Shown here one piece after another: positions 58,955-62,087 of a stretch of DNA of 64,000 nucleotides (positions are counted from its first letter, which is position 1; the number at the start of each line of letters is the position of its first letter). This stretch comes from Nodosilinea sp. E11 (GTDB lineage Bacteria; Cyanobacteriota; Cyanobacteriia; Phormidesmidales; Phormidesmidaceae): contig NZ_CP136520.1 in NCBI RefSeq assembly GCF_032813545.1, positions 3,776,001-3,840,000 on the forward strand. The letters run 5' to 3'. The position numbers and the translations under genes were made by a program. The notes beneath the pieces were generated by a model that saw nothing but the letters and a program-made list of their open reading frames with translations, ran no database searches and was not told the origin of the DNA.

Positions 58955-59440
58955 AGCTGGCCAGCGCCTAGATTAAACGTCCATCAAGAACAATCACAGC
59001 ATTCCCCGGTTATGGGGGCGATCGCTAGGGGCACCACCGATCGCCGGATCTAACCAGCCGTTGCAGGCAATTCCCTTCGCTTGCTCAAAGGTTGGGTTTA
59101 GCCCTGTAGATCAGCCTGTAGTCAAAGCATATCGGCCGCTCTGGCGTGAATTCTCTGCGCGTCGTATAAGTTTACGTCTCTCCCCAATCGGCCCTGTCCC
59201 AGCTACGGTGATGACAGGGAACTCACCTTGCTCCCTGAAGGCCATCAATCGGGTCAGTATCAATCGGGTAAACCGAGGGGGATGCCTCCCTGCCCCAGGA
59301 AGCCCGCAGAACTAAGGAACGTTGCGCTGTGTAAAGCAATGTTACAAAAATGCTGTCATGACGGCATGCTGGCTTGACGGCGTCGGGTAGGCCGATTAAG
59401 GTGTTTACATACCCGGGTCACCCCTATTTAGAAGTGCGCT
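58955..59440. promoter_or_regulatory. Upstream region of the RHH-ycf46-ycf35 cluster, with direct repeats
   Basis: This 486-bp region has two direct-repeat pairs: ATCAATCGGGT at 59244-59254 and 59259-59269 (15-bp step), and TGACGGC at 59359-59365 and 59375-59381 (16-bp step). The second pair lies 60-82 bp before the RHH start, in a likely promoter position. RHH proteins often bind short repeats in front of their own genes, so these are candidate operators. No gene was seen; the 84-codon frame at 59061 has no family signal. Confidence 0.5.
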
Positions 59441-59800
59441 ATGGAAGAGCAGAAAGCTACTAAGGTCACGTTGTATTTACCTCCCGACCTGCACCGTCAG
59501 TTAAAGATTCGCTCCGCCGTTGAGGGTGAGGCTATGTCTTCCATTGCTAAGCGTGCGATCGATTTCTATCTGACCCATGGCGAGGTCGTCGACGAAAGTC
59601 TAGAATCTGCCTTCGGTCAGACCCATCGGGTACACAGTTGCCCAAGCTGTGCCTCGTCGGTGGTGCTCCGAGAGGGTGAGTTGGTCGAAATTTCTCAAGT
59701 GATTGGTGCTAGTACCAGAGATGATCTGGGTGCTGCCGTCGTCCCCGACGTCGTCGCTAGCCCTGGTTCCCGTGAAGAAGGGGAACTGGTTGTTTGCTAG
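59441..59800 (+). CDS. Ribbon-helix-helix (RHH) DNA-binding protein with CxxC
   Basis: The 119-residue protein starts with an RHH/CopG-type fold: KVTLYLPPDLHRQLKIRSAVEGEAMSSIAKRAIDFYLTHG. The centre has HSCPSCASSVVLREGELVE with a CxxC pair that might bind zinc, and the tail is acidic and Val-rich, ending in VVC. It is likely a homodimeric regulator that might control the adjacent ycf46 and ycf35 genes. The arrangement resembles a stress-responsive Synechocystis cluster around slr0374 (ycf46), as far as I remember. Confidence 0.82.
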   Translation: MEEQKATKVTLYLPPDLHRQLKIRSAVEGEAMSSIAKRAIDFYLTHGEVVDESLESAFGQTHRVHSCPSCASSVVLREGELVEISQVIGASTRDDLGAAVVPDVVASPGSREEGELVVC

Positions 59801-59879
59801 GTACAGATTTGGTTGGTCGGGCTGTAGTTAGCTTAGACAACGGTTTCAATGCCCCGTAAGTCTTAGAAGGGATTTGGTC

Positions 59880-61412
59880 ATGCGAGAGGATCTAAATGTA
59901 CTGGTACAGGCTCAATATCCTCTGATCTACCTGGTCACCTTCGAGGAAGAGCGCGCCGAGCAGACCATTGCCGTGGTAGCTCGCCATCTCGCTAGAGACC
60001 AAGACATCAAAGCTCCTATGCGAGTCTATACCTGGACTATGACCCGGGGCATGGTGGAGTATGGGAATCCAGGGACGGGCACTCAAAACAACAATACGGT
60101 TTCTCCCGAAGCAGCTGTGGAATGGGTGATTCGTCAGCGAGAACCCGGTATCTTCATCTTCAAAGACCTGCACCCCTTCAAAGACTCCCCAGCGGTTACC
60201 CGCTGTTTGCGCGATGCGATCGTGGCGCTTAAGGGCACTCGCAAAACCATCGTGCTCATGTCTCCAGTCCAAGAAATTCCGATCGAACTTGAGAAAGAGG
60301 TCGTGTTGCTCGACTTCCCGCTGCCTGATATGTCGGAGCTAGACGAAGTTCTCTCTACTGAAATGAATCGGGCTCGGGGTCAAAGCATTTCTACCGAAGA
60401 GCGCGAAAAGCTGCTGAAAGCGGCCTTAGGGCTCACCCGCGACGAAGCGGAGAAGGTTTATCGTAAGGCTCGGGTGATGGCCAAGCGCCTTACCGCCGAA
60501 GAAGTGGACATTGTGCTTTCGGAGAAAAAGCAGCTTATTCGTCGCAATGGCATTCTCGAATTTATGGATGTCGATGAAACCCTGAACTCTGTGGGAGGGC
60601 TAGAAGAGCTCAAGCACTGGCTTCAACAGCGCTCTGATGCGTTTACCGAACGGGCGCGAGAGTATGGTTTACCCCAGCCCAAAGGCATGCTGATCTTGGG
60701 AGTACCGGGTTGTGGCAAGTCGTTAATTGCTAAGACTACGTCTCGGCTTTGGGGGCTACCTCTGCTGCGGCTTGACCTAGGGCGCGTATACGACGGTTCT
60801 ACTGTAGGGCGCTCTGAGGCCAATCTTCGCAACGCACTCCGCACCGCTGAGTCGATCTCTCCTTGTATTTTGTTTATTGACGAGATTGACAAGGCTTTTG
60901 CTGGCGGGGTGGGGTCATCGGATTCGGACGGGGGTACTTCCAGCCGCATTTTCGGCACCTTCCTCACCTGGATGCAGGAGAAAACCTCACCGGTGTTCGT
61001 CATGGCTACTGCCAACCGCGTAGAGAAGCTACCCAGCGAGTTTTTGCGTAAGGGACGATTCGACGAGATCTTCTTTGTTGACTTGCCCAACTCCGAAGAG
61101 CGCAAAGATATTTTTCAAATCCATTTGCAGAAGCGCCGCCGCGACATTGAGCGCTTTGACCTTGACCAGCTCACGAAGGTCTGCGATGGGTTTTCAGGTG
61201 CAGAAATTGAGCAAGGACTGATTTCTGCCATGTATGAAGCATTTGCCCAAGGACGTGAGTTCACTCAGCTCGACATTATTGCGGCGATTCGCGCCACGAT
61301 GCCGCTGTCGAAGACGATGAGTGAGCAGGTTACGGCTTTACGTGACTGGGCTCGCCAGCGAGCCCGTCCGGCGGCAGCCTCCGTCGCTGAGTATCAGCGG
61401 ATGGAGTTCTAA
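59880..61412 (+). CDS. ycf46: Ycf46-type AAA+ ATPase
   Basis: The 510-residue AAA+ protein has an N-terminal half of its own type (about 1-230; YPLIYLVTFEEERAEQTI) and a C-terminal ATPase module. The module has Walker A GVPGCGKS (about 274-281), Walker B CILFIDEID (about 329-337) and an Arg-finger region LRKGRFDEIFF. It matches the cyanobacterial/plastid Ycf46 family, whose member in Synechocystis (slr0374) is light- or stress-regulated and tied to carbon utilisation. The ATG at 59880 is preferred to the TTG at 59874. Substrates are unknown. Confidence 0.92.
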   Translation: MREDLNVLVQAQYPLIYLVTFEEERAEQTIAVVARHLARDQDIKAPMRVYTWTMTRGMVEYGNPGTGTQNNNTVSPEAAVEWVIRQREPGIFIFKDLHPFKDSPAVTRCLRDAIVALKGTRKTIVLMSPVQEIPIELEKEVVLLDFPLPDMSELDEVLSTEMNRARGQSISTEEREKLLKAALGLTRDEAEKVYRKARVMAKRLTAEEVDIVLSEKKQLIRRNGILEFMDVDETLNSVGGLEELKHWLQQRSDAFTERAREYGLPQPKGMLILGVPGCGKSLIAKTTSRLWGLPLLRLDLGRVYDGSTVGRSEANLRNALRTAESISPCILFIDEIDKAFAGGVGSSDSDGGTSSRIFGTFLTWMQEKTSPVFVMATANRVEKLPSEFLRKGRFDEIFFVDLPNSEERKDIFQIHLQKRRRDIERFDLDQLTKVCDGFSGAEIEQGLISAMYEAFAQGREFTQLDIIAAIRATMPLSKTMSEQVTALRDWARQRARPAAASVAEYQRMEF

Positions 61413-61444
61413 AGGCTTTCCTCCCGGCGGTATCCGGGGGAAGG

Positions 61445-61460
61445 GCTAGCGTTTGCTAGC
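61445..61460 (+). promoter_or_regulatory. Hairpin pair between ycf46 and ycf35
   Basis: GCTAGC-gttt-GCTAGC forms a 6-bp stem, and just upstream (about 61416-61445) a GC-rich imperfect hairpin CCTCCCGG/CCGGGGG occurs. Together they may set the relative amounts of the ycf46 and ycf35 transcripts. An AGGAGG ribosome site at 61537-61542 precedes ycf35. Confidence 0.45.
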
Positions 61461-61548
61461 AGTTAGTAATCAGATAGCCCGTGGCTAGCTGGTTTTGTCT
61501 CTCTCAAACCTCGTTGTCTCTCTCATTTTCCCTACAGGAGGAAACACC

Positions 61549-61899
61549 ATGTCTCACTTCAGCACCCTTCGCACCAAAGTGACCGATGCTGAGATTCTCA
61601 AGCAGTCTCTCTCTGACTTGGGTATTGCCACTAAGACCGAAGCTGATGTTCGCGGTTACAATGGCCAGCGTGTTCGCGCCGACCTTGTCGCCGTTCTGGA
61701 TGGTGAGTACGATCTGGGTTGGTCTCGTAATGCTGATGGCTCCTTTGATCTGATTGCTGACCTCTGGGGTGTTGCTAAAAAGCACAACCAGACTGAGCTA
61801 ATCAACTCTATTAACCAAAAGTACGCGGTCAATAAGACCCTGGCTGAGGTCAAGCGTCCTGGTCTACAAAACGCCAACGTTAAGTTGGTGCTTCAGTAG
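61549..61899 (+). CDS. ycf35: Ycf35 / DUF1257 family protein
   Basis: The 116-residue soluble alpha/beta protein starts MSHFSTLRTKVTDAEILKQSLSDLGI, followed by YNGQRVRADLVAVLDGEYDLGWSRNADGSFDLIADLWG. This is the DUF1257/Ycf35 pattern found in cyanobacteria and red-algal plastids. The function is unknown; the link to ycf46 suggests a client or partner. It has a strong ribosome site and a strong terminator at 61921-61956. Confidence 0.92.
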   Translation: MSHFSTLRTKVTDAEILKQSLSDLGIATKTEADVRGYNGQRVRADLVAVLDGEYDLGWSRNADGSFDLIADLWGVAKKHNQTELINSINQKYAVNKTLAEVKRPGLQNANVKLVLQ

Positions 61900-61920
61900 A
61901 TTCATCACGCGTTCCCTAGG

Positions 61921-61956
61921 TGGGTTGGCTAGCCTGTGCTAGCCAACCCATTTTTT
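61921..61956 (+). terminator. Terminator after ycf35
   Basis: TGGGTTGGCTAGC and GCTAGCCAACCCA form a 13-bp perfect stem with a CTGT loop, followed by six T's. It ends the RHH-ycf46-ycf35 transcript. Confidence 0.93.
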
Positions 61957-62087
61957 GCACCTATTTCTTGTGGTACTCTGCAACGCTGCCAGACTACACT
62001 GACGAAGAAGCCCTTTATCCCTGTGGGGAGTAAAGGTTGCACTCTGATTTCTTATCCCAGCTGTTGGGGTTTCGCGGTTAGCCTGGT

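Follow-up and report, generated by a model that had tools for sequence, protein, structure and literature searches.

What a predicted DNA-binding protein, an AAA+ ATPase and a small DUF1257 protein do together in one conserved locus is the question addressed here. Slr0374/Ycf46, Slr0376 and Ycf35 are conserved throughout the cyanobacteria, and the plastids of red algae still carry ycf46 and ycf35; to our knowledge, none of the three proteins has a known mechanism. The window, a 64,000-nucleotide stretch of the Nodosilinea sp. E11 genome, carries three collinear plus-strand genes (59441-61899) that encode a putative ribbon-helix-helix (RHH) protein, an AAA+ ATPase and a DUF1257 protein. The features of the locus are the following:

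59340-59379, plus strand: conserved promoter block TGTTACAAAA-A-TGCTGTCATGACGGCATGCTGGCTTGACG, by match to a 29-nt core
59374-59379, plus strand: -35 hexamer TTGACG, at the end of the promoter block
59397-59402, plus strand: likely -10 element TAAGGT, 17 bp after the -35 hexamer, proposed from sequence and spacing
59408-59420, plus strand: CATACCCGGGTCA, with dyad TACCCGGGTA, candidate operator at the predicted transcription start (28/36 loci)
59441-59800, plus strand: RHH protein of the Slr0373 family (NF052617 match), with CPxC (C67, C70) and a C-terminal Cys
59880-61412 (ATG), plus strand: Ycf46-family AAA+ ATPase, Slr0374 orthologue, 510 aa (PF00004, 104 bits)
60699-60722, plus strand: Walker A motif GVPGCGKS, invariant in 41 aligned orthologues, with the Cys278 codon at 60711-60713
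61416-61460, plus strand: two adjacent hairpins in the ATPase/DUF1257 spacer, clear in single-sequence folds
61549-61899 (ATG), plus strand: Slr0376-type DUF1257 protein, 116 aa (PF06868, 80.7 bits; cutoff, 22.2)
61918-61956, plus strand: intrinsic terminator, a hairpin at about 61918-61953 followed by T6

An earlier note on this DNA had described a cluster of three genes on one strand, a CxxC in the RHH protein (present as CPxC), an ATPase with an N-terminal domain of its own (present, lacking a P-loop), hairpins between the genes (two, both in the second spacer) and a strong terminator behind the cluster, and all of these are borne out. It had also rightly pointed to a relation to the Synechocystis cluster around slr0374: the locus is the local orthologue of the known stress operon slr0373-slr0374-slr0376, matching it in gene order and strand, and that operon is already published (Singh and Sherman 2002 and Jiang 2015, as cited in PMC7496141 and PMC7283877). 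Co-transcription and stress induction have been published for Synechocystis alone; there, the operon is the strongest set induced by blue light and also responds to high light, salt, oxidative stress and a limited supply of iron, sulfur or nitrogen (PMC7496141). A carbon-utilization phenotype of slr0374, whose product is published under the name Ycf46, is likewise cited there.

The third protein, which had been taken for Ycf35, is not Ycf35. The genuine ycf35 gene (130 aa) lies outside the window, at G000:C7:4001040, and its product scores 145 bits against PF06868, compared with the 80.7 bits of the window protein. It is flanked by genes for DUF2997 and a 4Fe-4S ferredoxin, a neighborhood described for Synechocystis ycf35/fed7 (PMC4284462); no DUF2997 gene occurs at the window locus, and the DUF2997 gene of this genome sits at the ycf35 locus. 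The window protein is of the Slr0376 type and has the same length as Slr0376 (116 aa; PMC2823733), and the argument from plastid conservation therefore does not extend to it. Its gene is preceded by AGGAGG, 8 nt upstream of the ATG. The structural model of the protein is confident (pLDDT 88) and found no match in the PDB below an E value of 0.07, so that the fold yields no function for DUF1257. Elsewhere, the slr0376-type gene is tandemly duplicated (L046; G083:C5:2291610-2292539), and a genome of the same phylum outside the class (G220) encodes a DUF1257 protein close to Slr0376 (L091:6224-6661) with no match to a Ycf46-family ATPase in that genome.

The linkage of the three genes holds across the class. 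Among 146 Cyanobacteriia genomes with a completeness of at least 90%, the RHH gene, the Slr0374-type ATPase and the Slr0376 type are all present in 129 and all absent in 17; 15 of these 17 belong to one family with genomes of picocyanobacterial size, and the remaining two are G073 and G090. The survey of gene order called for in the earlier note shows the RHH and DUF1257 genes to be collinear, 1.9 to 2.7 kb apart, in 127 of the 129 genomes with both, and in the other two (G099 and G095) they lie on different contigs. The order RHH-AAA-DUF1257 is constant in 40/40 loci, drawn from f1 and f3 to f34, that is, all 33 drawn families with the RHH gene, minus f10 (G009), whose copy, starting 891 bases into the contig, was left out. 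Over these 40 loci, from more than 30 families, the DUF1257 protein has a median identity of 90% to its counterpart in the window, the ATPase one of 76% and the RHH protein one of 45%. At least one Ycf46-family ATPase is found in each of the 146 genomes; picocyanobacteria-like genomes hold only a more distant one, and the B form is the only type in genomes of that size. Besides the Slr0374 type, a second and more distant ATPase is thus a rival candidate for the orthologue of plastid-encoded Ycf46.

The pairing of ATPase and DUF1257 extends well beyond cyanobacteria. With DUF1257 alone as the query and one genome per species, we recovered 73 outside loci from Myxococcota, Planctomycetota, Chloroflexota, Acidobacteriota, Actinomycetota, Verrucomicrobiota, Pseudomonadota and others, as well as one archaeon. 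A Ycf46-family ATPase is present in 61 of them, DUF2997 in 64 and both in 55, and such an ATPase stands beside DUF1257 at the window locus, too; in the other 12 no AAA gene lies in the fetched stretch, and some of these loci are short contigs. In addition, the trio occurs on plasmids of Bacillus, Nostoc, Pseudanabaena and Geminocystis. The adjacency in 61 of the 73 outside loci therefore indicates that the pairing is ancient and portable. A FastTree phylogeny divides the ATPases into three groups. The A type comprises the window ATPase and those of the three-gene operons and groups with ATPases of Myxococcota and Proteobacteria that, as in the window, lie directly upstream of DUF1257. The second group is often found beside Hsp70, GrpE, WD40/HEAT, radical SAM and FGE genes (examples confirmed by Pfam), and the third is the B/C type of the cyanobacterial phylum. 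Our literature search found no paper that joins the Ycf46-family ATPase, DUF1257 and DUF2997. We tentatively suggest, at slightly less than an even chance, that these three form one ancient, undescribed remodeling system of many bacterial phyla, plasmids and an archaeon, which was split into two loci in cyanobacteria and of which plastid ycf46 and ycf35 would be the last relics.

Several individual loci illustrate the range of contexts. Large operons from several phyla and the archaeon (L131, L134, L153, L157, L162, L169, L189 and L197) draw, with content varying by locus, on a set of WD40/HEAT, GrpE, Hsp70, Ycf46-family AAA, DUF1257, DUF2997, radical SAM and FGE genes. In Prochlorococcus phage P-SSM2 the genes for DUF2997 and DUF1257 overlap (L078:3787-4381), and Mycobacterium phages encode a full-length Ycf46-family ATPase with 32% identity (L079:3920-5620). 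On a Treponema succinifaciens plasmid, a DUF1257 gene lies within a phage tail cluster (L074:5001-5408), with no ATPase found in the fetched stretch.

The ATPase, as judged from its model, combines two AAA-like modules in tandem, of which the N-terminal one has no P-loop and the C-terminal one is an active AAA+ domain. The chain holds a single GxxGxGK[ST] motif, in the C-terminal domain, where GVPGCGKS, ILFIDEID and the invariant R390/R393 provide the sequence hallmarks of an active AAA+ enzyme. The N-terminal module (about residues 1 to 210) shows strands and helices in AAA order. The model aligns approximately with D1-D2 of p97 and Rix7 over about 550 columns, at TM scores of about 0.45 to 0.6; the alignments behind the structure models cover the window and the genome loci. 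The P-loop cysteine sits at the position of p97 Cys522, whose modification inhibits that ATPase (PMC5389986). In a redox survey, Slr0374 Cys269, within peptide 260-271, was 91.6% reduced in the light versus 78.3% in the dark (PMC13214033). GMLILGVPGCGK fits this peptide in length and cysteine position, an apparent match judged without the Slr0374 sequence itself, and the surveyed residue appears to be the P-loop cysteine. We rejected the idea that this cysteine is a cyanobacterial invention, because 40 non-cyanobacterial ATPases have GVPGCGKS or GIPGCGKS. Within cyanobacteria it sets the Slr0374 type apart from the other sampled types, the one exception being a distant ATPase encoded in the genome that holds the window. 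That genome encodes two more Ycf46-family ATPases far from the window (G000:C7:4797830 and G000:C7:4820253), the latter with P-loop GIQGCGKS.

The RHH protein (119 aa) scores 133.2 bits against NF052617, slr0373_blue, for which the equivalog cutoff is 100, placing it in that family. Over 34 sequences K8, V9, T10 and Y12 as well as C67, P68 and C70 are invariant; the KVTLY strand motif is conserved throughout, and Pfam RHH matches are only subthreshold. Sensing of a metal or of stress by the CPxC may be supposed. Upstream, the 29-nt core ending in the -35 hexamer scores above all 1080 shuffles in 32 of 36 regions. The dyad is found 15 to 45 nt before the start codon in 28 of the 36 loci, versus 0.125 expected from shuffles, and in the variant TACCTAGGTA both sides are changed with symmetry kept; the contiguous dyad is missing from the other eight regions, all of which have the RHH gene. 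The exact site occurs once in the window's genome and once in each of two others checked, and this single copy per genome fits a local autoregulator. The dyad is a candidate target of the RHH protein; it could also be bound by another regulator.

Downstream of the ATPase gene, the first spacer hairpin has no T-run after it. Compensatory changes are seen at five of seven consensus pairs (30 sequences), and the RNAalifold energy is weak because the alignment slips. Rfam holds no family for this element, and a hairpin element in the same spacer has already been predicted in Synechocystis (PMC2662882). Since the slr0376 mRNA is mainly monocistronic there (PMC7283877), the third gene can be uncoupled, and the conserved hairpins are consistent with such a separate mRNA. 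The terminator region (61900-61965, 66 nt) folds at -28.6 kcal/mol.

From these genes we would predict, with about even confidence, an RHH autoregulator that controls a redox-sensitive AAA+ remodeler and its dedicated DUF1257 partner. The ATPase would form a ring like that of Cdc48 or NSF, with the N-terminal module in a structural role and the C-terminal domain hydrolyzing ATP to remodel a protein client. The DUF1257 protein would be its dedicated partner, an adaptor rather than a passenger, made in excess by way of a ribosome-binding site of its own and of a separate or processed mRNA. The RHH protein would bind the dyad at the start site and repress its own operon, and CPxC together with the C-terminal cysteine may let it release DNA upon oxidation or a change in metal. 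Reduction of the P-loop cysteine in the light would permit ATP binding, which oxidation would prevent, as with p97 Cys522; with both responses in place, transcription and activity would therefore both follow the photosynthetic redox state. Trio linkage, joint loss, cross-phylum AAA-DUF1257 recurrence, the cis-elements and the invariant P-loop cysteine support this prediction. Against it count the modest light/dark shift of 13 points (PMC13214033), the presence of the cysteine in many non-cyanobacterial relatives, which makes it not specific to phototrophs, the eight upstream regions without a contiguous dyad and the 12 outside loci without AAA in the stretch.

The strict pairing and the extreme conservation of DUF1257 would also suit a protein whose folding, unfolding or assembly the ATPase carries out, that is, a client and not an adaptor. 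The slr0376 mRNA, among the most abundant in Synechocystis (PMC3516471), looks more like that of a product than of a cofactor, and GrpE-Hsp70 genes adjoining DUF1257 in some phyla would fit folding help. However, diverged DUF1257 copies stay paired with different ATPase types, which suits a cofactor equally, and we consider a client unlikely. The regulated ATPase-client module of the earlier note is supported as an ATPase-partner module by the phylum-wide linkage, joint loss, cross-phylum recurrence and apparently private promoter dyad, and falls where it named the partner Ycf35.

That the three are merely co-regulated stress genes, with the RHH protein not acting on the operon and the ATPase and Slr0376 in separate jobs, would agree with the mostly monocistronic slr0376 mRNA (PMC7283877) and with the listing of slr0373 and slr0376 as Hik35-regulated (PMC7496141), which also counts against RHH control. 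Collinearity in 127 of 129 genomes, joint loss and the fact that AAA and DUF1257 genes independently lie side by side in many phyla as well as on plasmids make it improbable. A domesticated defense or conflict system is more improbable still: the larger AAA-DUF1257-DUF2997 operons with Hsp70/GrpE, WD40/HEAT, radical SAM and FGE in Chloroflexota, Planctomycetota, Acidobacteriota, Actinomycetota and Methanolinea and the copies on plasmids and phages could be read that way, and published conflict systems also include Hsp70/GrpE and FGS (PMC7159879), but no effector or nuclease was identified at the loci examined, and in the cyanobacterial branch the operon is chromosomal, nearly universal and slow to evolve. 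Protein quality control is suggested by the larger operons with Hsp70/GrpE, and the cross-phylum genetic partnership, the promoter dyad and the candidate redox cysteine make the function of Slr0374, Slr0376 and Ycf35 directly testable.

Compared with known systems, the MoxR-vWA and GTPase conflict systems that PMC7159879 describes offer, in the part of that source available, no match to the AAA-DUF1257-DUF2997 module and no use of the term DUF1257. Cdc48/p97, NSF and Rix7 share tandem AAA-like modules with the window ATPase, whose C-terminal domain is close to p97 D2, including the P-loop cysteine at the Cys522 position; the window ATPase differs in a first module without a P-loop and in having DUF1257 as its predicted partner, and no p97-type substrate-recruiting N domain is seen in it. 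The Ycf35-DUF2997-Fed7 cluster (sll0661/sll0662; PMC4284462) has the DUF1257 family in common with the window locus, which holds the other paralogue at another locus, a shorter protein without adjoining DUF2997 or ferredoxin genes. The Synechocystis operon slr0373-slr0374-slr0376 agrees with the window locus in families, order, strand, the 116-aa third protein and the spacer hairpin; nothing fundamental differs, and the window dyad, TACCCGGGTC, is one base off the consensus. The operon itself was already known, and what is added here is the cross-phylum partnership, the promoter dyad and the reading of the P-loop cysteine.
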